From the IMG/VR virus record IMGVR_UViG_3300034169_000010, positions 1 through 47,871 of that record: a stretch of 47,871 nucleotides of DNA; one strand, written 5' to 3'. The notes beneath the pieces are model-generated. The model was not told the DNA's origin. It was given only the letters and a program-made list of their open reading frames with translations, and ran no database searches. Every line of letters starts with the position of its first letter. Within the stretch, counting starts at the first letter, position 1. The position numbers and the translations under genes were made by a program. This DNA is from a virus. Below are positions 3,781-47,871 of this stretch, piece by piece.

Positions 3781-3810
3781 AAGATACAGCCTGCTAACAG
3801 CGGATAGCAA
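3781..3810 (-). promoter_or_regulatory. Promoter sharing the palindromic spacer
   Basis: Minus-strand -35 TTGCTA (3810-3805) and -10 TATCTT (3786-3781) are 18 bp apart. The spacer contains CCGCTGTTAGCAGG (3803-3790), near-identical in sequence and placement to the palindrome in the promoter at 411-438. Both promoters drive early genes, which suggests one shared regulator. The predicted start coincides with ATG 3774. Confidence 0.5.
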
Positions 3811-4298: not shown

Positions 4299-4526
4299 TC
4301 AGGGGTCTGCCCCAACCAAGGGTGGAGCGAGGAAGCGGCTACGCCTTGCTTCAACCCTCACTGGGTGCCTGAAGGACGCCAACCCAAGCTCATGGGTGCA
4401 GAGGGGGCAGAGGACGACGGTGTGCACCCCGGTTGCGACAACGAACCAGACGGCGGAGGGGGTCTCAGCGTCGCACCCGTCGCACATCTGGGGCTCTACG
4501 GCAAACTCGGGGTGGATAGGGGTCAC
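4299..4526 (-). CDS. Zinc-knuckle protein (75 residues)
   Basis: Two cysteine pairs, CDGC and CPLC, about 28 residues apart, with a hydrophobic stretch between, suggest a small zinc-binding domain; the basic C-terminus may touch nucleic acid. GTG 4526 overlaps the preceding stop (GTGA), and this start removes the low-complexity N-terminus of the longer frame. It is the last gene before the terminator region at 4.1 kb. Function unknown. Confidence 0.65.
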   Translation of the reverse strand: MTPIHPEFAVEPQMCDGCDAETPSAVWFVVATGVHTVVLCPLCTHELGLASFRHPVRVEARRSRFLAPPLVGADP

Positions 4527-7004: not shown

Positions 7005-9067
7005 GATGCGTGCCTCAAAATAGGCAGTTTCCAGACGAGTCCGCCGCCTCTCCCGGACCTCTCTTCAGTTATTAGCTCCTGTGAGTCGGCCATCTCAAGG
7101 CGGGCCGCCTGATGGATCGCCTTCTTCCCTCCACACCTCTCCTCCAAGGCTCTCCCCGACAAGCCATCGGGGTTCGTCTTCAGAATCTTCTTGATCTTTT
7201 CCTTGGCAGGGGCCAGCAGCCTCTTCCGCTCGGTCTCCGCCTCGTCCTGCTGGGCTTCCTCTGCCGCCTCCTTGTCGATCTCTCGCAGGGTCCACGTCGT
7301 CGGGTCCAGATTCATGCGAAAGATCCGACCCGTCGCCCCCAGCGCCTTCGTGATCGTCACCTCGACTTCCGTCTGGTTGTCCTTGCGGTCGATCTTTTCG
7401 AGGTAGGCAAGCACCTGCGAGCGGTGCTCCACGCCAGCCGACCCGAGAGCAGCCGACCGGGGGTGCATCCGGTCCTCTTTCCGCTTGGCTGCGGTCGCCG
7501 CCCTGTTGGCGTGGCTCGGGCAGAAGACGGGGATGAGCAGTTTCGCGGCGATCTGGCGGGAAATGTCCATCGCGCAGTTGATCCGGGACCTCTCCCCGTC
7601 GTCGTCCGCCTTCGTTGCGACCGTCTGGGGGGTGTCCACCAGCACGGCGGCGGCATCCCCTGCGGCTATCACCGCATCCCGGAAGGATTCCATCGAGACA
7701 CCAGACTCCCGCTCGTCCGCCACCTTGACGACAGGCCCCACGGAGTCCATGAACCGCTGGAACGCCTCATCGTCTGAGGCGATGTCGCCGTAAACGTCCG
7801 CCAAGCGGGTGAGCGGCTGCGTCCCGCCCTGGTCCGGGGAGTAGATGTAGAGCCTCCCACCGTTCAGGCGGGCTCGTGCTATCCCGATCTGCATGGCGAG
7901 GGCCGATTTGCAGGAGCCGGGAGCCCCAACGAAGGTCACTACGACGCCGCCGGGGAGTCCACCACCCAGGCAGGCGTCGAGGGCAGGGATTCCCGTTGGA
8001 GCCCTTGTAGCGAGGATCGTCTGAAGCTCTAGACGGAAGAGGTTCAGGTCAATCCACGGGAAAACGCCGGGTGCAGCCGTGGGGAGGTCCGCCGGGGCCG
8101 GATCGGCTGGGTCCGACATCGGCTGCGGAGGGCGGAGAGCCGCCGACGTGGACGGGAACGGGTCTCTACGGGCTTGGGCGTAGGCCCACCCGATGATCCC
8201 CTGTACCTCCCCGTCCGTTACCGTCCTTTGGGCTCCTGCTTCCTTCGCCAAGTCGAGGAAGGGGTCTGCCCACGTACGGGCGACGGCGATCGGGACGGCG
8301 TTGTCCTTCATCTGGGTCCAGAGCCACACGGCCGTGTCGTGGCGAGCAGATCCGGCGAGAATCCTCTCGGAGGCGCGGGCGAAAAGCTTCGCGCATAGCG
8401 GTCCAGCGTGCTGCTCGTCCAGTTCGATGCCGGTGTGGATCGGATCGGTGGGGGAGAGCGAGGATTTTCCGAAAAGCGCGAGCAGCCATGCGGGGGCTGG
8501 CTCTAGGGTGGAATCGTCCTCGTCAACCCACTCGTAGGTGCCGCCGGATGCGTGCATCGAGGGGGCGACGATGATGTACCCGCCGTCCGCCTTGATATCG
8601 AGCCCAGGACCGAGCTTCCCGGACGAGTTCGAGGAGATGCGGCTCCCATCCCTCGGGTGCTGGAACAGGATGTGGACCGATCCCCCGCCAGACCCGGTAC
8701 GAGCGCGAATGGAGTATGGGAGCTTCCCGTTCTTAGCCTCTAGCGCATCAAGCGAGTCCAGCCCCGTCTTGTAGGCGTCTACGTCGAGGACGATGATCCC
8801 TGACTCGGCGCCGCACCGGATGGCGACGTTCGCTAGTGGGTACTGAATCCACCATGAGCGGATGATCGTGGGGTCGGTCGTCGCCTCCAGAAGGCCGGTC
8901 AGGACAGCGCGACCGATGGGGTGTTTCGCCTTGCGCTCGCACTCTTCGCCCTTCCCGCAGGCGCACCCATTGGCGGTGGGCCACCAGCACGGGAAGACGT
9001 GCCACCCCTTCGCAGCGTAGCGGAGCGCAGCCGCACCCATGGGGGACGGCGCGAGCATGGGCATCAC
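7001..9067 (-). CDS. Primase-polymerase / RecA-like helicase fusion
   Basis: Replication protein with two parts. Residues 1 to about 210 match the bifunctional primase-polymerase (archaeo-eukaryotic primase) family: GWHVFPC near 21, a WW..YP.AN segment near 72-80, D95 and D97 in VLDVD, SVHI near 130, and GLDIKADGGYI near 155. Residues about 340-600 form a RecA/RepA-type ATPase, with Walker A GAPGSCKS at 381-388 and Walker B AVLVDTP near 474-480. A charged helix and a likely winged helix finish the protein. It would prime and unwind phage DNA. No DNA polymerase gene was found, so a host polymerase is implied. GTG 9067 overlaps the upstream stop; ATG 9064 is equally possible. Confidence 0.85.
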   Translation of the reverse strand: MMPMLAPSPMGAAALRYAAKGWHVFPCWWPTANGCACGKGEECERKAKHPIGRAVLTGLLEATTDPTIIRSWWIQYPLANVAIRCGAESGIIVLDVDAYKTGLDSLDALEAKNGKLPYSIRARTGSGGGSVHILFQHPRDGSRISSNSSGKLGPGLDIKADGGYIIVAPSMHASGGTYEWVDEDDSTLEPAPAWLLALFGKSSLSPTDPIHTGIELDEQHAGPLCAKLFARASERILAGSARHDTAVWLWTQMKDNAVPIAVARTWADPFLDLAKEAGAQRTVTDGEVQGIIGWAYAQARRDPFPSTSAALRPPQPMSDPADPAPADLPTAAPGVFPWIDLNLFRLELQTILATRAPTGIPALDACLGGGLPGGVVVTFVGAPGSCKSALAMQIGIARARLNGGRLYIYSPDQGGTQPLTRLADVYGDIASDDEAFQRFMDSVGPVVKVADERESGVSMESFRDAVIAAGDAAAVLVDTPQTVATKADDDGERSRINCAMDISRQIAAKLLIPVFCPSHANRAATAAKRKEDRMHPRSAALGSAGVEHRSQVLAYLEKIDRKDNQTEVEVTITKALGATGRIFRMNLDPTTWTLREIDKEAAEEAQQDEAETERKRLLAPAKEKIKKILKTNPDGLSGRALEERCGGKKAIHQAARLEMADSQELITEERSGRGGGLVWKLPILRHAS

Positions 9068-9573
9068 CGGCCCATCTCGTCTCGGAGCTTGCTTGGTATC
9101 TGGCGATGGCAGGGCTGGCAGAGGAGGGCCAACTGGAATAGGAGTTCGTTCCCGAACCCCACTTTGTAGGCTCCCTGCTCAGCGATGTGGTGGGCCTCGA
9201 AAAACGGTGGGAATACGGCAGTGCCCGCCATCAGGTTTCTGCCGCAGCCGTCGCAGATGCCGCGCCGGTCAACAAAAAGCCGCAAGCGCATCGTTTTCCA
9301 CTCTGTCGAGTTCAGATGGGCCTCGTACTCCTCGCGCCACGCGATATCTGCCGCCGCCTTCATCGCGCGGAGTTCGGCGGATCTCGCCACCCATCCGCCC
9401 TCCCGTTTCGCTTCATCAAATTCCGGGAAAGACTCCCATCCTGGGTTGTCCTCCCGCCGGAGCGGGTTGGATATTGCGGTCCAGCAGTCGAGGCACTGGA
9501 CCTTGATCTGCACTGTCCCGTTCGACGTGACAAGCCGACGCTTATCGGTGTGATCGTGCGGGCAGGCGTTCAT
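9064..9573 (-). CDS. HNH endonuclease
   Basis: C-terminal HNH domain: C107 and C110 (CDGC), the double histidine H128-H129 in EAHHI, then C152, C155 and H156 in CQPCH. The cysteines would hold structural zinc and the histidines the metal at the active site. An N-terminal CxxC (about 27-30) is separate. Such genes are often mobile, free-standing homing endonucleases, though some serve in packaging. ATG 9573 and the stop overlap both neighbours, so it is fully built into the operon. Confidence 0.8.
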   Translation of the reverse strand: MNACPHDHTDKRRLVTSNGTVQIKVQCLDCWTAISNPLRREDNPGWESFPEFDEAKREGGWVARSAELRAMKAAADIAWREEYEAHLNSTEWKTMRLRLFVDRRGICDGCGRNLMAGTAVFPPFFEAHHIAEQGAYKVGFGNELLFQLALLCQPCHRQIPSKLRDEMGR

Positions 9574-9761
9574 CGCAGCCCCAACTGCTCGGCCGCTGCC
9601 GGATCAAAAACCCCTGTCTCCGGTATGCACTTGGAGACGGCGTGCTCAAGGGATTTCGTCGCCACCCAACTGATGGGGCGCTCAAGCTCCTTGGCGAGCG
9701 CGGCCACTGATTCGTAGAGATCCTCTCGTACCGAGATCGTTGTCCATCCGGGTTCGGGCAT
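9570..9761 (-). CDS. Ribbon-helix-helix regulator (63 residues)
   Basis: A short beta strand (TTISVRED) followed by two helices with ALAKELERPISWV is the CopG/Arc/MetJ ribbon-helix-helix pattern. These proteins dimerise and bind tandem or palindromic operators. A promoter with near-direct repeats lies immediately upstream (9783-9846) and may be its own operator. It heads the replication genes, so it probably regulates them. Confidence 0.75.
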   Translation of the reverse strand: MPEPGWTTISVREDLYESVAALAKELERPISWVATKSLEHAVSKCIPETGVFDPAAAEQLGLR

Positions 9762-9782
9762 CTGTGTCTACCTCCAGTGAGT

Positions 9783-9846
9783 AAAGTATCACAAAGGAGG
9801 GTGCGGTCAACTATACCTTGGTCTAGTTCCGGCTATACTGGTCTAG
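9783..9846 (-). promoter_or_regulatory. Promoter and direct-repeat operator of RHH gene
   Basis: Minus-strand -35 TTGACC (9810-9805), 16-bp spacer and extended -10 TGATACTTT (TACTTT at 9788-9783). Just upstream lie two near-copies of CTATAC-TGGTCTAG (9811-9826 with two extra bases, and 9833-9846), their shared TGGTCTAG parts about 20 bp apart, that is two helical turns. RHH regulators commonly bind such tandem sites. Confidence 0.55.
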
Positions 9847-9866
9847 CATCGGTCAGTCCCCCTCTC

Positions 9867-9905
9867 GGCCCGCCGCGTCTCGCAGCGCGAGCGGGCCACC
9901 TTTTT
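9867..9905 (+). terminator. Plus-strand intrinsic terminator in a minus-strand region
   Basis: GGCCCGC (9867-9873) pairs with GCGGGCC (9891-9897) over an inner CTCGC/GCGAG hairpin, followed by ACC and TTTTT (9901-9905). It works only in the plus direction, where no gene lies upstream. TATACT at 9834-9839 could be the -10 of a plus-strand promoter, giving a transcript of about 60 nt. Confidence 0.65.
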
Positions 9906-9909
9906 CGGC

Positions 9910-10137
9910 TCAGATCCCGTCGTCTTCTGCGGGCTCGCCCTGAATCGGCATCCCCCTCGCCCTCAGCCAGTCGATGTGCCCAGTGCGGTAGCGGCCCAGC
10001 CAGAGCCGCGCCGCGTCCTCCATGATCGTGCTCCTGCCTCCCACGATGCCGGACTCCTCGGCCACCCTCTTCAGCTCCTCGATGGTCTCAAGTCGCAAAG
10101 CGAACGACATGACCTCTTTTCGCTTCGGTCTACTCAT
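9910..10137 (-). CDS. Ribbon-helix-helix-type DNA-binding protein (75 residues)
   Basis: A basic strand (KRKEVMSFALRL) and two helices with ETIEELKRVAEESG fit the ribbon-helix-helix fold; a Trp-rich tail follows. It may pair with the second RHH gene at 9570 in controlling the early-late switch. AGGAGGTGA precedes ATG 10137, one of the strongest ribosome sites here; the upstream frame extension is rejected. Confidence 0.7.
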   Translation of the reverse strand: MSRPKRKEVMSFALRLETIEELKRVAEESGIVGGRSTIMEDAARLWLGRYRTGHIDWLRARGMPIQGEPAEDDGI

Positions 10138-10178
10138 CGTCACCTCCTGCCGTGAGCATAGCAGAAGATGGCAGCGGA

Positions 10179-10472
10179 TTAGATGTCCTGGGACTCCTTG
10201 CGAATGATCCACGCGAGGCGCCTGCGGTCACTGGCGCAGACGTGCAGGACGTGGTCTCTTGGCGAATACGCGATGCTTCCGTCCCACGGAAGGAGCTGCC
10301 CGTCCCTCTCTGGGTAGAGTTCGCACACTGCCCACTTCCCGCGAGGCTTCCCGTTGATCGGTGGGCGGGTTTCATCGAGGAATACGATGGGAACTGAGCA
10401 GTCCCTACAGGGACGGCACCAGCGCCTCTGCCACAGGCGACGTGGGGTAACTTTCTTCTCTTCCTCTGACAT
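10179..10472 (-). CDS. Cys-containing first early gene (97 residues)
   Basis: CRPC/CRDC near residues 19-25 could be one half of a zinc site; further cysteines lie near 50 and 79. The protein is basic and otherwise unrecognised. AAGGAGGAC precedes ATG 10472. It is the first gene leftward from the divergent control region, so it is probably expressed early and may act on the host. Confidence 0.75.
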   Translation of the reverse strand: MSEEEKKVTPRRLWQRRWCRPCRDCSVPIVFLDETRPPINGKPRGKWAVCELYPERDGQLLPWDGSIAYSPRDHVLHVCASDRRRLAWIIRKESQDI

Positions 10473-10485
10473 CCGGTCCTCCTTC

Positions 10486-10506
10486 CCTAGATTCTAGGTC
10501 TATGAT
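10486..10506. promoter_or_regulatory. Divergent control region with palindrome
   Basis: Between the early and late blocks, CCTAGATTCTAGG (10486-10498) is a perfect palindrome. It overlaps a minus-strand -10-like TAGAAT and abuts a plus-strand -10-like TATGAT (10501-10506). Good -35 boxes are not visible, which would fit activated promoters. It shares the TCTAG core with the repeats at 9819 and 9839. Confidence 0.45.
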
Positions 10507-10548
10507 GTTCACGGGAAGCCCCTTATCGCCACAGAGCGAAGTCCGGAG

Positions 10549-10560
10549 CCCCGAAAGGGG
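10549..10560 (+). promoter_or_regulatory. GAAA-tetraloop hairpin before first late gene
   Basis: CCCC-GAAA-GGGG, a GNRA tetraloop hairpin, ends two bases before the ribosome site AAGGAGGT (10563-10570). It could protect the 5' end of the late mRNA or keep the ribosome site open. Confidence 0.5.
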
Positions 10561-10577
10561 AAAAGGAGGTCCAAGAG

Positions 10578-10970
10578 ATGTATTCCTACGTAGACGAGGC
10601 GCCCTTCTCGGTCCCTACGGGGGCGAAGGCCCACTACGTCGTCACGATCGCCAACGCGGCTCTCACCCTCGGGAACACGACCAACATCCTGACTACGGCC
10701 GTTCTCGGTGTCCCCTCTGCCACGGACGTGAACGGCACCCGCTACCCGAAGGCCGTCTGCCTCGCGGCGCTCGACTCCACGGCTGATGTCTGGGTGACGG
10801 TGGATGGTCAGACGCCGGTCATCGGGACCACCCAGCCGGTCGGCGTGAAGCTCCCGGCCACCTACCCGACCCTCCGTATCCCCTACCCGGGAGCGATCAA
10901 GAACGACACGATCAAGCTCATCTCGGGGTCGGCTGGCGGCACGCCCGTCCTGATCTATTTTGATTGGTAA
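10578..10970 (+). CDS. Small beta-rich virion-like protein (130 residues)
   Basis: Rich in Thr, Val, Gly and Ala with few charges, typical of capsid decoration or fibre-associated proteins. No specific family is recognised. AAGGAGGT lies 7 bases before ATG 10578. It opens the late block. Its last 53 bases are overlapped on the other strand by an HNH gene. Structural role inferred from composition and position. Confidence 0.7.
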   Translation: MYSYVDEAPFSVPTGAKAHYVVTIANAALTLGNTTNILTTAVLGVPSATDVNGTRYPKAVCLAALDSTADVWVTVDGQTPVIGTTQPVGVKLPATYPTLRIPYPGAIKNDTIKLISGSAGGTPVLIYFDW

Positions 10971-11505
10971 AAAGGCCAGTCAGATGAGACCAGCTACGGC
11001 CACTCAAGATCATGCTCACTTGGGAGTGGGAGACCGGATAGGCGTTCGCTATCTCCCCCACCCTCGCGCCGCCCTCGTAGAGCCTGACGATATCGAGCAC
11101 ATCAGCGTCGCTCAGCTTCGCGTTCCAATGGCGAGACCCCTTTGTATCGAAGAGACCGTTGGCTACGGCGTGGACCATGTTCCCCTTTCTGGTCACGGCT
11201 TCAAGGTTCTCTGCCCGGTTGTTGGTCTTGAGCCCGTCAAGATGGTTGATGTCGAACCGGGGCGGGATCGGCCCCTTATGGGCCTCGTAGACCACGCGAT
11301 GGATCGCAACGCACGTCTTCGCTCCGTTCCCGTGGAGCATCACCTTGGAGTACCCTGTGTCCGCGATGTGGGGGCGAAGGATGCGCTCGGTCAGGTGGCT
11401 GAAAACACGTCCGCACGCGCAGACAGAGTAGAGCCCATTCCACCCAAGAACTGGGGAAAACAGCGAGCCGCAGCCGCCAGCGCCCACGTCTTCGAGCGGG
11501 TCCAT
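10918..11505 (-). CDS. NUMOD4-HNH homing endonuclease
   Basis: A NUMOD4-like N-terminus (WNGLYSVCACGRVFSH, then LRPHIADTGYSKVMLH) leads into an HNH core with H69 in AIHRVVYEAH, NHLDG near 96-100 and NNRAENLE near 104-111. A C-terminal helix-turn-helix (about 130-175) would give sequence recognition. The gene is antisense to the late block, overlaps the end of the preceding gene, and carries its own promoter (11537-11565) and strong ribosome site. All this fits an inserted free-standing homing endonuclease. Confidence 0.85.
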   Translation of the reverse strand: MDPLEDVGAGGCGSLFSPVLGWNGLYSVCACGRVFSHLTERILRPHIADTGYSKVMLHGNGAKTCVAIHRVVYEAHKGPIPPRFDINHLDGLKTNNRAENLEAVTRKGNMVHAVANGLFDTKGSRHWNAKLSDADVLDIVRLYEGGARVGEIANAYPVSHSQVSMILSGRSWSHLTGLFTNQNRSGRACRQPTPR

Positions 11506-15741: not shown

Positions 15742-16251
15742 ATGAGCCCCGATCCTGCGGTCCCTCCCGTCGATGTCATGCCTGCCGGAGCGGTGCTCTC
15801 GGCCGGGCAGACATTCGCTCAGGCTGCCACTACTGAGCCCGGCGGGACGGGACCGGGGGTCACGACTACCCTGTCGCGGACGGCGTCCGAGCTGCCAGCC
15901 CCTGGCGTCGTGACCGCTGCGGTCGTCGCGCCGAAGACCGGCCCGATCGACGTCCCCGAAGGCTCGCCCGTCGTCGTCGTGGCGCAGGCGTTCTGGAAGA
16001 GCAAGACGATCAAGGCGGCGCGCAACCTGATCGCCGGAGCAATCGGAGCGGCGCTCCTCGCGGTTGCCGTGAAGGTGGCCGGGGCCGGGACCGTGATCGG
16101 CCTCGACTGGACTGAAGTGCGGAACATCGCCATCAACGCTGGTGTCCTCGCGCTCGCGGGCGGCTATATGATGTGGCATAAGACGCTCGAAAATAACCCG
16201 GTCAAGATCGTCGTGCTCTCTCTCCTTGGTGGGGCCGTGTTGTGGGCATGA
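15742..16251 (+). CDS. Membrane protein with altered C-terminus (169 residues)
   Basis: A flexible N-terminus (about 1-85) precedes two or three hydrophobic segments (about 93-111, 127-140, 155-168). The heptapeptide LENNPVK near residue 150 is followed by IVVLSLLGGAVLWA. A copy of the DNA for LENNPVK occurs at the end of the next gene, right before the following start. This suggests the ancestral protein ended at LENNPVK and gained a new tail when the endonuclease gene inserted. Holin or antiholin role possible. Confidence 0.7.
   Translation: MSPDPAVPPVDVMPAGAVLSAGQTFAQAATTEPGGTGPGVTTTLSRTASELPAPGVVTAAVVAPKTGPIDVPEGSPVVVVAQAFWKSKTIKAARNLIAGAIGAALLAVAVKVAGAGTVIGLDWTEVRNIAINAGVLALAGGYMMWHKTLENNPVKIVVLSLLGGAVLWA
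16184..16206 (+). repeat. Upstream copy of 23-bp duplication
   Basis: CGCTCGAAAATAACCCGGTC plus three bases; its partner is 16861-16883. Twenty of 23 bases match and all three differences are at silent third positions in the shared reading frame. The pair brackets the endonuclease VII-like gene. Confidence 0.85.
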
Positions 16252-16886
16252 GCCTCGCGCTCCACTTCCCCGTGACGAAGCGGTGCACCGGGTGCGGCGG
16301 GGAGAAGGAGTTGCAAGAGTTTTCCCCGAACAAGCGCGGGCGACTGGGACGGCAGTCCCAGTGCAAGGTGTGCTTGAACAAACAGGGCCGAGACCTGCGC
16401 ATCGTTGACGACAACGAAACGATGGGCAGCGTTACGGATTGTGCTTCAACGAAAGTATGCCCAGGGTGTAAACAGGAGTTGCCGCGAGACGCATTCAACC
16501 CTAGGCGCGCACGAGGCAAACACTTCCTTGTCTCGCGGTGCAAGAACTGCCTGAGCGTGTACCACCGCGCCCGACGCGACAGGGACCCGGAACACAACTG
16601 GCGCCACAACCTGACGTACAGGCGCGGGATGAACGTCGAGCGATACCGGGCCATGGAGGTAGAGCAGCGGTTCGGATGCGCCATCTGCGGCGGCCCCCCA
16701 TCTCTCAAGAGGGGCGGCAAGGTGGACCATTTCGACGTAGACCATGATCACGAGACGGGGGAGGTACGTGGCCTGCTTTGTAGCGGCTGCAATACCGGCC
16801 TTGGGTCCTTCCGTGATGACCCGTCTAGGCTCGCAGCGGCCATCGCATATCTGAAGCGCTCGCTCGAAAATAATCCGGTGAAATGA
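16248..16886 (+). CDS. Endonuclease VII-like HNH nuclease (212 residues)
   Basis: Two zinc-ribbon modules lead (C13/C16 with C39/C42; C71/C74 with C98/C101), followed by an endonuclease VII-type core: C144/C147, D165-H166-D167-H168 in VDHDHETG, GEVRGLLC, and C178/C181 with a helix ending in YLKR. T4 endonuclease VII resolves branched DNA, but phage proteins of this layout are often homing nucleases. The last residues, LENNPVK, copy the preceding protein. ATG 16248 overlaps the upstream stop (ATGA). Confidence 0.8.
   Translation: MSLALHFPVTKRCTGCGGEKELQEFSPNKRGRLGRQSQCKVCLNKQGRDLRIVDDNETMGSVTDCASTKVCPGCKQELPRDAFNPRRARGKHFLVSRCKNCLSVYHRARRDRDPEHNWRHNLTYRRGMNVERYRAMEVEQRFGCAICGGPPSLKRGGKVDHFDVDHDHETGEVRGLLCSGCNTGLGSFRDDPSRLAAAIAYLKRSLENNPVK
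16861..16883 (+). repeat. Downstream copy of 23-bp duplication
   Basis: Partner of 16184-16206, encoding the LENNPVK tail of the nuclease. It is followed directly by TGATG, the stop-start junction with the next gene, as expected if this was the original end of the interrupted gene. Confidence 0.85.
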
Positions 16887-17263: not shown

Positions 17264-17811
17264 AGCCCTGGCGCCACATCGCGGAGACCCTGATCGCCCT
17301 CGCGGGGATCGGCGTGGCGTTCGGTGCGTCGGCTGTCGGCACGCTCGTCGGCACGGGCTCGTCCCTGTCCGGCGAGGCAGCGGTGATCCTCGCGTGGGTC
17401 TTCGCCGTCGTGATGGGGCTCTTCGCCTTCGCAGCTGCCTTCAACCGGCTCCTCGTCATGCCGATCATCGAGAAGATGGCTGCGCAGCACCGGGAGTCCC
17501 TGTCGCTTGGCCTCGCTGAGATCGCCAAGGGATTCGAGGCGCTGATGGATCGGCACATCGCCGCGCACGACCCGCACCCGGACGCGAGCGAGCGGCTGCA
17601 CGAGCCGTTGCAAGAGGCGATCGACGAGATTGAGAGAGAGCTTTCGGAGTTCGTCATCTGGTGCCAGAAGAACGGGTGCCCACACGCCATGCGCGCCAAA
17701 CGGAGGTCAACCGACCCGCAGACGGGCGGCTTGAACGATACCGGCCCGGACCTCTCCGACGTGGCGAAACGTGCCGAGTACAGGACGCGCAAGGCTGGGG
17801 AGCGCGAGTGA
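17260..17811 (+). CDS. Two-pass membrane protein in lysis cassette (183 residues)
   Basis: Hydrophobic segments at about 8-32 and 40-63 make a hairpin in the membrane, followed by a long soluble C-terminal domain (about 70-183) with a WCQKNGCPHA segment. A holin-like role is suggested by position immediately before the endolysin. Start and stop overlap both neighbours. Confidence 0.65.
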   Translation: MKPWRHIAETLIALAGIGVAFGASAVGTLVGTGSSLSGEAAVILAWVFAVVMGLFAFAAAFNRLLVMPIIEKMAAQHRESLSLGLAEIAKGFEALMDRHIAAHDPHPDASERLHEPLQEAIDEIERELSEFVIWCQKNGCPHAMRAKRRSTDPQTGGLNDTGPDLSDVAKRAEYRTRKAGERE

Positions 17812-18281
17812 GCGACTTCGACCGCGCCCTCCACGATTTCGTCCTCCCGTTCGAGGGCGGGAAAGTAGACCACCCACACGACAAGGGCGGCAGGACGAAC
17901 CGTGGGATCACCCAGCGGACCTACGACGGGTGGCGGCTCGACCACGTCCTCGACAAGCGGGACGTGTGGGAGATGAGCGACGCGGAGATGTACGAGGTCT
18001 ACCGGGGCTCCTACTGGTGGCCCGCGAAGGATCTCCCGTGGCCTCTGTGCCTCGTCGTATTCGACTGTAGCGTCCTCTTCGGCCCCAGCCGGGCTCAGGA
18101 GTGGCTAGCCGCCGTCTCATGGCATGACGCCCCCTCTGTGGCGCAGGCGTGGGCCATCATGTGCCTCCGGCGGGAGCGGCACCGGGCGAACATCGCGAAG
18201 GACAAGACGCAGGCCCGGTTCTGGCCGGGGTGGATGAACAGGCTCACCGCGCTCGCGGCAGAGATAAGCAAGGAGAAATGA
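17808..18281 (+). CDS. Endolysin, GH108-type muramidase
   Basis: The N-terminus carries the GH108 signature: E16 in PFEGGKVDHP as the likely catalytic acid, then DKGGRTNRGIT (about 25-35). The C-terminal part (about 105-157) resembles the helical peptidoglycan-binding region of the family. It would cut peptidoglycan glycan strands at lysis. There is no signal peptide, so release depends on a holin. GTG 17808 overlaps the upstream stop (GTGA); at 157 residues it is close to the usual size. Confidence 0.8.
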   Translation: MSDFDRALHDFVLPFEGGKVDHPHDKGGRTNRGITQRTYDGWRLDHVLDKRDVWEMSDAEMYEVYRGSYWWPAKDLPWPLCLVVFDCSVLFGPSRAQEWLAAVSWHDAPSVAQAWAIMCLRRERHRANIAKDKTQARFWPGWMNRLTALAAEISKEK

Positions 18282-42806: not shown

Positions 42807-42982
42807 CGGTGGCCTCCTGCGAGCCGATTCCAGCGGCGGATGGCGAGCGCGGGTGTCTTGCCGTAGACGATCAGATCGTGCGTGGCCATATCGCAGCACG
42901 TCACCTTCGGCTCGTCGCAGTAGGTAGCGTCCAACGTCGCCCTGCGGTGGCACACCGGGCACGGCAGCGGCTTCGCGTTCAT
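42803..42982 (-). CDS. Lar-like restriction alleviation protein (59 residues)
   Basis: CPVC (8-11), a TCC near 27-29 and the ending AIRRWNRLAG fit the Lar/Lambda restriction-alleviation family pattern (CP-x-C, C-x-x-C, A-x-x-x-WN-x-R). Such proteins relieve host type I restriction. It overlaps its neighbours as ATGA. The second cysteine pair is irregular, so this is a family-level guess. Confidence 0.55.
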   Translation of the reverse strand: MNAKPLPCPVCHRRATLDATYCDEPKVTCCDMATHDLIVYGKTPALAIRRWNRLAGGHR

Positions 42983-43473
42983 CGGGGGCCTCGGTTCGAG
43001 CGGCTGCGTTGGTGCAGCTCTTTGCGCGCTGCGTTCCGTTTCTCTTTGTTCACCTCGTGCGACCTCCTCCACGTATCTCTCCGACACGTGGCGCACTCTC
43101 TGTACGGACGGCTACCGCGCAGGCTGCGCCAGACCACGTTCGATCCGACGAGTGGGTGCCCGTGCTGGCACGCGGTTTTCTTCTGTCCGGCATATCTGCC
43201 TTTTGCGGCGCAATCAGCCATGTTGTCGCGATGCGTACCCACGAACAGATGGGTGGCCTGTATGCACGCCGTCTGGTCGCATTTGTGCAGGACGAGACGC
43301 CCCGCTGGCACGGGACCATGCTCCAGTTCGTAGGAGAGCCTGTGCGCCAGGTGCAGCCTACCGCTCACGTGCAACCTACCGTAGCCGCGCCTGTTCACCA
43401 CGCCGAACCAGAGCGTGCATCCGGTATTCGGCTCCGGAATCGACCACTTCTCCAGTCGCTCGCGGATGCTCAT
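42979..43473 (-). CDS. HNH endonuclease with altered core Asn (164 residues)
   Basis: Layout matches phage HNH nucleases with HRLSYELEHGPVP then LHKCDQTACIQATHLFVGT: H of HKC, a Gln where the family has Asn (compare CVN in the paralogue at 44299), and H of THL. A second zinc-ribbon (CQHGHPL, CATCRR) follows. ATG 43473 overlaps the upstream stop, so it is integrated in the operon. The Asn-to-Gln change may lower activity. Confidence 0.75.
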   Translation of the reverse strand: MSIRERLEKWSIPEPNTGCTLWFGVVNRRGYGRLHVSGRLHLAHRLSYELEHGPVPAGRLVLHKCDQTACIQATHLFVGTHRDNMADCAAKGRYAGQKKTACQHGHPLVGSNVVWRSLRGSRPYRECATCRRDTWRRSHEVNKEKRNAARKELHQRSRSNRGPR

Positions 43474-43595
43474 CGCTCCTCCTGTCGGGGGCCTCGCGCG
43501 GTGTCGCACCGGTAGAGCAGCCTCACCCTCTCAGCCTCGATCTCGTTTGCCAGCCGGTCGTATGCGGCAACGACGCGAGCGCGTGCGTCAATCAC
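43470..43595 (-). CDS. Small charged peptide (41 residues)
   Basis: A helix with many Arg and Glu (MIDARARVVAAYDRLANEIE). GTG 43595 overlaps the previous stop by eight bases; the stop overlaps the next ATG (ATGA). Unrecognised. Confidence 0.55.
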   Translation of the reverse strand: MIDARARVVAAYDRLANEIEAERVRLLYRCDTARGPRQEER

Positions 43596-44102: not shown

Positions 44103-44302
44103 TTCTCTTTCTCCTCCCGCCTCGCGGCGGCAACGCGGGCGGCGGCTTCGTGCGCCCGATCTATCCGCTCTTGGTGCGGCTCTTCTCTCGGCACGCTGAT
44201 GCGGCGGCCGTCTAACTTCGTGAACGTGTCGTAGCAGGGCTGTCCATCCACGCTCTCGCAGTTCGGGCACCATTCGGCGAGCGGGTCTTTCGGCGCGGTC
44301 AT
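44099..44302 (-). CDS. Zinc-binding small protein (67 residues)
   Basis: CPNC (12-15) and CYDTF (23-27) make a half zinc site, followed by a highly charged helical tail. Members of this type occur widely in actinobacterial and proteobacterial phages. ATG 44302 overlaps the upstream stop. Unknown role. Confidence 0.65.
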   Translation of the reverse strand: MTAPKDPLAEWCPNCESVDGQPCYDTFTKLDGRRISVPREEPHQERIDRAHEAAARVAAARREEKEK

Positions 44303-44715
44303 GACGAAAGTCCTCGCGCCAGTGCGGCGCGACGCCGGAGTACGTCACACTCTCGGCACATTCGATACGTGGTGCCCACGTCCGTACGTGTCCCAACAAG
44401 GGGGTGCCCGCGCAGGCAAGTGGTGCGTTTCTGGTGACGACGTCTCCCCTTGCGTGAGGAGTCTTGCGCGTTGTCGGCGGCTGAACCCAAGAACAGGTGG
44501 CCTACGTTCACGCACGGGGGGTTGTCGCAGTGGTGGCACACCATCACCCCGTCCGGGATCGGTCCGTTCGCTTCCACCCATGCGAAACGGTGCGCTTGCC
44601 AGACCTTCCCTCCGCGTTTAACCCTCCCATACCCGCGGCTGGTCACGTTCCCTATCCACAACAAGCACCCGCTATTCGGCTCGGGTATCACGAGATTGTC
44701 AAAATCATGCTTCAT
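44299..44715 (-). CDS. HNH endonuclease (138 residues)
   Basis: Paralogue of the gene at 42979: HRFAWVEANGPIP, then CHHCDNPPCVNVGHLFLGS with all three HNH residues present, followed by CLRGHPL and CREC. It should be catalytically competent. It is flush in the operon through ATGA overlaps on both sides, unlike the antisense nuclease at 10918. Confidence 0.8.
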   Translation of the reverse strand: MKHDFDNLVIPEPNSGCLLWIGNVTSRGYGRVKRGGKVWQAHRFAWVEANGPIPDGVMVCHHCDNPPCVNVGHLFLGSAADNAQDSSRKGRRRHQKRTTCLRGHPLVGTRTDVGTTYRMCRECDVLRRRAALARGLSS

Positions 44716-44939
44716 GGCTTCGGCTCCTCGGGCGGGGGCGGGTAGAGCAGGGCGAGCACTTCGTCTGCCAGCGCCACGGACCACAGCGCGACCTTGTCGT
44801 GCGGGATGGCGCCTCCCGGCGTGGACGAGTCGCTAGCGAGAATCCCTTGCAGCGTCGCACACGTCAGGCGCAGACGTACCTCTTCGACGTTGACGGAGCG
44901 GCGGCACAACGGGCAGTTGTATTCGCTGCTACCCCTCAT
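44712..44939 (-). CDS. CxxC protein (75 residues)
   Basis: CPLC (9-12) with a further cysteine near 27 and a Leu-rich C-terminus (ALADEVLALLYPP). Possibly zinc-binding; unrecognised. Start 44939 overlaps the upstream stop. Confidence 0.6.
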   Translation of the reverse strand: MRGSSEYNCPLCRRSVNVEEVRLRLTCATLQGILASDSSTPGGAIPHDKVALWSVALADEVLALLYPPPPEEPKP

Positions 44940-47387: not shown

Positions 47388-47785
47388 AGCGGGTTCTCCT
47401 TTATGAATGCGATCATCTCTTTAGCGTCCATGTCCCATTCGAGGTTGCGCGACGCCTCCGTCTCTGCCTGCTCCTGCGTCAGCCGGTCGTCCAGATACCC
47501 TGCTCCGAACTCTGCGAGGCGGACGGCGTAATCGGCTTTCGCCGCGTCGCAACCAGCGCACGGTGGGTGCGAGGCATCGTATCTATGCTCGCCGCACTCC
47601 TCGCTCTTGTAGTCGAACTCTGCCTCAAAGGCGTCGCAGCCGGAGCACGAGCCGTAGCTGCCGTGCGCCCAGAAAGTCTCACCATTTAACGTGACCTTGG
47701 CCCACCAGTCGCCTTGATACGAACCGAAGTTGCGGAACTCCAGTACCTCGGCCCCGGCTGCGGAGAGTGCCTCTTCGTAGCTCAC
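47384..47785 (-). CDS. Cys-rich protein spanning the genome junction (133 residues)
   Basis: Complete copy of the gene cut at the left end. Cysteine pairs at about 47/50 and 76/79, each in CxGCDA context, plus C64 and H67, suggest one or two zinc sites. The rest is acidic. GTG 47785 overlaps the stop of the preceding 83-residue gene (GTGA), and it leads into the DnaJ-like and ERF genes. Function unknown. Confidence 0.75.
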   Translation of the reverse strand: MSYEEALSAAGAEVLEFRNFGSYQGDWWAKVTLNGETFWAHGSYGSCSGCDAFEAEFDYKSEECGEHRYDASHPPCAGCDAAKADYAVRLAEFGAGYLDDRLTQEQAETEASRNLEWDMDAKEMIAFIKENPL

Positions 47786-47871
47786 CGGATTGACCCTTCG
47801 CAGAGGTCGAGAGGCTCGCCCGCGACCGGCACGTCTCCGACGAACTCCCGGCAGAGGCGCTCTGCTTCGTT
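47643..47871. repeat. Right copy of terminal direct repeat
   Basis: Partner of 1-229. T at 47744 against C at 102 is the only difference and changes GTA to GTG in the minus-strand gene without altering the protein. See the left copy for interpretation. Confidence 0.95.
47782..47871 (-). CDS. 3' part of 83-residue gene (cut by window edge)
   Basis: The last 29 codons and stop of the protein encoded in full at 140-391; the 5' part lies beyond the window end. Identical to the left copy. Confidence 0.8.
   Translation of the reverse strand, partial: NEAERLCREFVGDVPVAGEPLDLCEGSIR

Follow-up and report, generated by a model that had tools for sequence, protein, structure and literature searches.

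Genes and features at the locus

The window, the whole 47,871 nt of the IMG/VR virus record IMGVR_UViG_3300034169_000010, begins and ends with an exact 229 bp direct repeat (1-229 = 47643-47871), and probably represents a complete genome or a circularly permuted one. At the locus described here, a membrane gene, a nuclease gene and a gene for a coiled-coil protein follow one another on the same strand, and the seven codons of the membrane protein's LENNPVK segment occur twice, once on each side of most of the nuclease gene (Table 1). The genome carries many nuclease genes: four more HNH genes lie at 9067-9573, 10921-11505, 42982-43509 and 44302-44784 (- strand), one with a weak HNH match and three with HNH_3 matches, one of the latter together with NUMOD4.

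Table 1. Genes and repeat copies at the locus.
Feature	Position	Strand	Basis or content
Membrane gene, 169 aa	15742-16251	+	ORF; hydropathy
Copy 1 of the tail repeat	16184-16206	+	CGCTCGAAAATAACCCGGTCAAG; LENNPVK within the membrane gene
Extra end of the membrane gene, IVVLSLLGGAVLWA plus stop	16207-16251	+	14 residues; probable carried-in tail
Endo VII/HNH nuclease	16242 or 16248 to 16886	+	Pfam, PHROG, residues, model
Copy 2 of the tail repeat	16861-16883	+	CGCTCGAAAATAATCCGGTGAAA; LENNPVK = C-terminus of the nuclease
Gene for coiled coil and one membrane helix	16883-17263	+	Relative in a distant phage (L004)

The membrane protein has a long, Pro/Val-rich N-terminus followed by two hydrophobic helices (about residues 90-119 and 123-148), then LENNPVK and finally IVVLSLLGGAVLWA. 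A low-confidence single-sequence model gives three helices, with a possible third at residues 153-168, and is too weak for use beyond topology. The ORF has no Pfam or PHROG match, and no holin family matches the protein. The gene is holin-like by position and topology only; the same genome encodes a Glyco_hydro_108 endolysin (17808-18281).

The nuclease ORF starts at an ATG at 16248, with a GTG at 16242 also in frame, and stops at a TGA (16884-16886). Its ATG lies on the stop of the membrane gene (ATGA, 16248-16251) and its leader, GGTGGGG (16228-16234), lies inside the extra end of that gene. The protein matches Endonuclease_7 in Pfam (PF02945, E = 3.5e-20, above the cut-off) and phrog_2633 (endonuclease VII, E = 8.6e-41); by sequence, the closest solved structure is that of Hpy99I (E = 1.8e-8), with T4 Endo VII at E = 0.012. 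All the DHHRN catalytic residues are present and invariant (D165, H166, H168, R174, N182), and the CxxC pairs are intact (C144/C147/C178/C181). The protein thus belongs to the Endonuclease VII/DHHRN family by its domain, its catalytic residues and its two zinc-binding CxxC pairs.

A model of the nuclease based on 23 sequences is compact (pLDDT 87.8) and comprises two N-terminal zinc ribbons and the nuclease domain. Its final helix stops at residue 208, and LENNPVK (206-212) is therefore mostly outside the modelled fold (the last residue block has a pLDDT of 67); the fold is predicted to be complete before the copied tail. The 26 residues that follow CN..LG are ordinary for the family (median 25), and we dropped the length of this tail as an argument.

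Relatedness of the two copies

The two copies are identical at 20 of 23 bases and start 677 positions apart. They differ by C/T (16197/16874), C/G (16203/16880) and G/A (16206/16883), all at third codon positions and all synonymous, and they are read in the same phase in two different genes. The original prediction, that a 23-bp near-copy with only synonymous differences lies on each side of the nuclease, was therefore accurate, save for a small slip in one coordinate (CCCGGTCAAG starts at 16197, not at 16194). The variant codons of copy 1 (AAC/GTC/AAG) are preferred in the phage genome and those of copy 2 (AAT/GTG/AAA) are unpreferred. Copy 2 also contains GGTGA at 16877-16881, followed by AAATGATG; these are likely to serve the coiled-coil gene as its ribosome site (Shine-Dalgarno) and start, and that gene begins at an ATG at 16883, the last base of copy 2, or at 16886.

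The bare count of 20 matches is weak evidence of relatedness, because 14 alignment offsets reach at least 20/23 in a 23-mer window-wide, including those of the terminal repeat and of protein repeats. The composition of the match is more telling. The sequence GAAAATAA occurs twice in the genome, both times in the tail repeat, which contains AT-rich sequence in a genome of 64% GC. The codons GAA, AAT and AAA are rare in the phage (23%, 7% and 11%, respectively, of the codons for their residues), and rare codons common to both copies point to shared descent of the DNA rather than to convergence of the proteins. When the codons of the membrane and nuclease genes were shuffled, none of 1500 replicates reached the observed score (maximum 29.2 bits, against 35.7 observed), which corresponds to a Gumbel P of about 1.3e-5, a value that leaves out the position of copy 2 at the exact end of the nuclease. 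On this sequence evidence, a shared DNA ancestry of copies 1 and 2 can safely be accepted.

The residues that follow copy 1 are also far from random. The hydrophobicity of IVVLSLLGGAVLWA is in the top 0.087% of the stop-free 14-codon windows of the genome, and is reached by 1/1318 when a stop must follow the window. Such an extreme value makes random read-through unlikely. The original prediction held that the insertion had incidentally given the membrane protein a new end, and this now looks doubtful, because arbitrary DNA would hardly encode a stretch as hydrophobic as IVVLSLLGGAVLWA. More probably, IVVLSLLGGAVLWA arrived as the genuine tail of a membrane protein, the rival possibility being that it is native to the membrane protein.

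The junction in other phages

A distant phage (L004) has a relative of the coiled-coil gene, at 27-34% identity and with SNMEGRFWA invariant. It comes directly after a small membrane gene for two helices, the two genes meeting at a TAATG with no nuclease between them. This membrane gene, whose encoded tail runs about 20 residues past PVP, is not significantly similar to that of the window (BLASTP E = 2), but the two are alike in place and topology. The coiled-coil gene is thus probably the original right-hand neighbour of the membrane gene, and the L004 junction supports, but does not prove, the entry of the nuclease between two adjacent genes.

Closer comparisons were sought in several collections. 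The membrane gene has no close relative in phage records, IMG/VR or genome-collection contigs, and the coiled-coil gene none in phage records or IMG/VR; nothing close to the nuclease was found in IMG/VR, nor was the empty junction (as an ENNPVK-stop-ATG pattern). Since these searches returned no close nuclease-free relative, the polarity of the duplication and the donor origin proposed below are ones that we infer. In the closest TerL relative (L003, 52% identity), the membrane, nuclease and coiled-coil genes are absent from the stretch examined, and the membrane gene is absent from the whole record.

Terminal copies at other Endonuclease VII loci

We compared the ends of the nuclease with the neighbouring genes at about 125 Endo VII loci taken from IMG/VR, GTDB genomes and phage records. 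The locus of the tail repeat ranks first among the 125, and two others (L027 and L136) have a terminal copy at an end of the nuclease. In L027 (IMGVR_UViG_3300022309_000032), the nuclease ends in TLDYTP and the upstream gene in TLDFTP, with 17/20 nt identical. Six phages have homologs of this upstream gene, in no case with a nuclease after it, and these homologs stop at the column where the L027 gene does; the end of the L027 gene is therefore taken to be native. L136, on a contig of a Coatesbacteria MAG, is the mirror image: the nuclease starts with MALFPTVE and the downstream gene with MALFPSVE, and the copies, which take in the stretch ahead of the start, match at 24/32 nt. The downstream gene of L136 has no homologs in phages.

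When termini were swapped between loci, the score of L027 was reached in 1 of 14520 comparisons and that of L136 in 0 of 13107. At the DNA level, with the 99% point of the null at 27.4 bits, L136 scores 29.9 and L027 23.8. Each is a single example, and neither stands far enough above this null by itself for certainty. The two loci stand out most at the protein level, and the count of cases is therefore not unbiased. In the three cases together, stop codons excluded, we count nine differences between copies at third codon positions and two conservative replacements, as expected from the divergence of genuine gene ends.

Some other loci were considered and left aside. The repeats that flank the nucleases of L007 and L125 are mainly intergenic and are not copies of gene termini. 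In L007 (Streptomyces phage Spelly), the repeat CTGACTAAAAATC lies around the nuclease (1394-1440 and 2033-2065), and the last codons and stop of the nuclease (TCT GAC TAA) are within one of its copies; in L125, an exact intergenic 14-nt repeat, CGGTTTGGAGTCCC, lies on both sides of the Endo VII gene (3781-3794 and 4321-4334). The likeness of tails in L066 and L067, Lys-rich or confined to three residues, is probably due to chance. In L066 (around 4085 and 4513), the upstream gene ends in KGRKSNKK and the nuclease in KGRNKKSK, a Lys-rich and AT-rich match that is possibly a terminal copy.

A probable homing gene that may carry a replacement gene end

We consider it somewhat probable that a free-standing homing gene resembling that of F-CphI entered between the membrane and coiled-coil genes, with copy 1 as the carried gene end and copy 2 as the displaced original. 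The membrane gene would first have ended in ...LENNPVK and a stop, with the coiled-coil gene directly after it (ATGATG). That junction would have been invaded by a free-standing Endo VII homing endonuclease gene (DHHRN, F-CphI-like), which would have brought its own version of the terminal codons of the membrane gene together with the 14-residue hydrophobic tail. The carried copy 1 and IVVLSLLGGAVLWA would have been joined in frame to the resident membrane gene, while the resident tail (copy 2) would have moved downstream and been captured as the final codons and stop of the nuclease, without ceasing to provide the coiled-coil gene with its ribosome site and start. Both genes would remain complete, and the nuclease would be translated by coupling to the membrane gene at the ATGA.

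We infer the homing activity of the enzyme, the donor origin of copy 1 and the hydrophobic tail, and the status of copy 2 as the original. Should copy 2 indeed be the displaced tail, the start of the next gene would hold its bases in place, and copy 1 would be free to vary or foreign. The direction of the silent changes then follows from codon preference in copy 1 and from the Shine-Dalgarno sequence and start in copy 2. Protection of one copy from cleavage, which had been proposed to explain these changes, is not needed. Two other parts of the original prediction gained support: that insertion of the nuclease duplicated the tail of the membrane gene and that one copy was recruited as the C-terminus of the nuclease. 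The support comes from the statistics, the nuclease-free junction of L004, the predicted completeness of the fold before the tail and the two analogous cases.

A generalisation is tentative: Endo VII homing genes of phages might commonly sit in short terminal duplications, 3' or 5', carrying a replacement terminus and capturing the displaced native one (a stop, or a ribosome site and start), which would spare both genes of compact operons, and the recoded copies may resist self-cleavage.

Alternative explanations

A local event is the next reading to weigh, although an unlikely one. An insertion would have duplicated 23 bp, the new end of the membrane protein would be whatever the inserted DNA happened to encode, and later silent changes would protect one copy from the nuclease. 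The repeat itself, the synonymous nature of all three changes and the insertion between adjacent genes (L004) fit this course of events, but a new membrane end in the top 0.09% for hydrophobicity does not, and the direction of the silent changes is accounted for by codon preference and the Shine-Dalgarno sequence. Moreover, the L136 copies differ at 8/32 sites, more like divergence between alleles, and homing enzymes are not known to produce target duplications of 20-30 bp.

Rather less probable still is that copy 1 is the original. The membrane protein would natively have three helices and end in IVVLSLLGGAVLWA, and the end of the nuclease would have been fused, by a deletion, to the remnant tail of a tandem paralogue of the membrane gene that once preceded the coiled-coil gene. 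The hydrophobic tail does look functional, a third helix appears in the low-confidence model, and the ATGA coupling is clean. Yet this history requires an extra, lost gene, no remnant of a paralogue is seen beyond the 23 bp, and L027 and L136 show terminal duplication without paralogues.

That two seven-residue C-terminal stretches resemble each other by chance or convergence is very improbable: matches of at least 20/23 do arise at about a dozen offsets window-wide, by chance or through protein repeats, but the codon-shuffle P (about 1e-5), the rare codons common to both copies and the placing of copy 2 at the exact end of the nuclease all count against it. The least credible reading, which we reject, places the nuclease within a spliced element (a group I intron or an intein) whose splicing across the copies would restore the membrane gene. 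The joined copies would indeed read ...LENNPVK stop, and Endo VII homologs of phages do occur inside split terminase genes. However, the nuclease ORF leaves only about 40 nt, which could not hold an intron core, and an exact group I splice, with U at the exon end and G at the intron end, fits at no aligned position. Between 15500 and 17500 no Rfam family matches, those of introns included (the best hit, at E = 0.33, falls well short of the gathering score), and neither the nuclease nor the membrane ORF has an intein (Hint splicing) domain.

Relation to known mobile genes

The layout has a precedent in the mobile ORFs of fungal mitochondria, found in atp6 of Allomyces and in atp6, atp9, cox2 and nad3 of Glomus (PMC3630166). 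Such an ORF comes with a C-terminal piece of foreign origin, which is joined in frame to the host gene, while the native C-terminus ends up downstream; the carried piece may measure only about 50 bp, as in atp9, and the copies differ mostly at synonymous positions (PMC3630166). The phage locus is alike in that the C-terminus of the host gene is duplicated on both sides of an endonuclease ORF and that copy 1 with IVVLSLLGGAVLWA is in frame and supplies the end of the membrane gene. It differs in that the fungal enzymes are LAGLIDADG or GIY-YIG proteins of a mitochondrial genome, whereas here an Endo VII/HNH enzyme lies in a phage genome; the fungal copies are mostly longer than the 23 bp repeat; the native fungal copy was identified from relatives, whereas copy 2 is the probable native one here; and the probably displaced copy forms the nuclease's own C-terminus in the phage, unlike in the fungal ORFs. 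The arrangement thus appears analogous to one known from fungal mitochondria, except that the mobile gene is an Endo VII gene of a phage and that the probably displaced tail now ends the nuclease. The reuse of a host-gene tail by a nuclease had been called unusual; this stands insofar as we found just two further candidates among about 125 loci, and less so given the fungal precedent (PMC3630166). We found no published phage example of tail displacement in the open-access literature, most subscription journals being outside the scope of the search.

Among phage enzymes, F-CphI of cyanophage S-PM2 is a characterised free-standing homing enzyme with the Endo VII motif and DHHRN (PMC6083498). The nuclease studied here likewise belongs to a free-standing phage gene, has the Endo VII catalytic motif and conserves DHHRN. 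F-CphI, however, adjoins an intron-containing psbA and is protected by that intron, and the part of the source consulted describes no terminal duplication (PMC6083498). The mob and seg free-standing endonucleases of T4 are optional genes between conserved genes, a status that the phage gene here may share, and their starts can overlap the upstream stop (UAAUGA in mobE), with probable translational coupling (PMC2988022). The ATGA overlap of the phage nuclease fits such coupling. The T4 enzymes are HNH or GIY-YIG rather than Endo VII proteins, and the sections of the source consulted report no duplicated host-gene terminus (PMC2988022). Hpy99I and T4 endonuclease VII share the beta-beta-alpha-metal domain of the phage nuclease, but the former is a restriction enzyme and the latter a Holliday junction resolvase, and neither lies between duplicated gene ends.

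Compact phage operons have almost no neutral DNA, which raises the question of how a selfish nuclease enters them without breaking its neighbours. If true, a replacement tail brought in by the nuclease gene, combined with capture of the native tail, would be a simple and testable answer. It would also tie the homing genes of phages to the fungal-mitochondrial elements that carry C-termini, and account for some of the strange gene ends and hydrophobic extensions annotated in phages.

Two observations concern terminase genes. In rV5-like phages, the terminase gene is split and has a relative of the phage nuclease gene inside it. In L003, the terminase (8669-11404) apparently contains an intein that lies close to the Walker A region and has a LAGLIDADG_3 domain.
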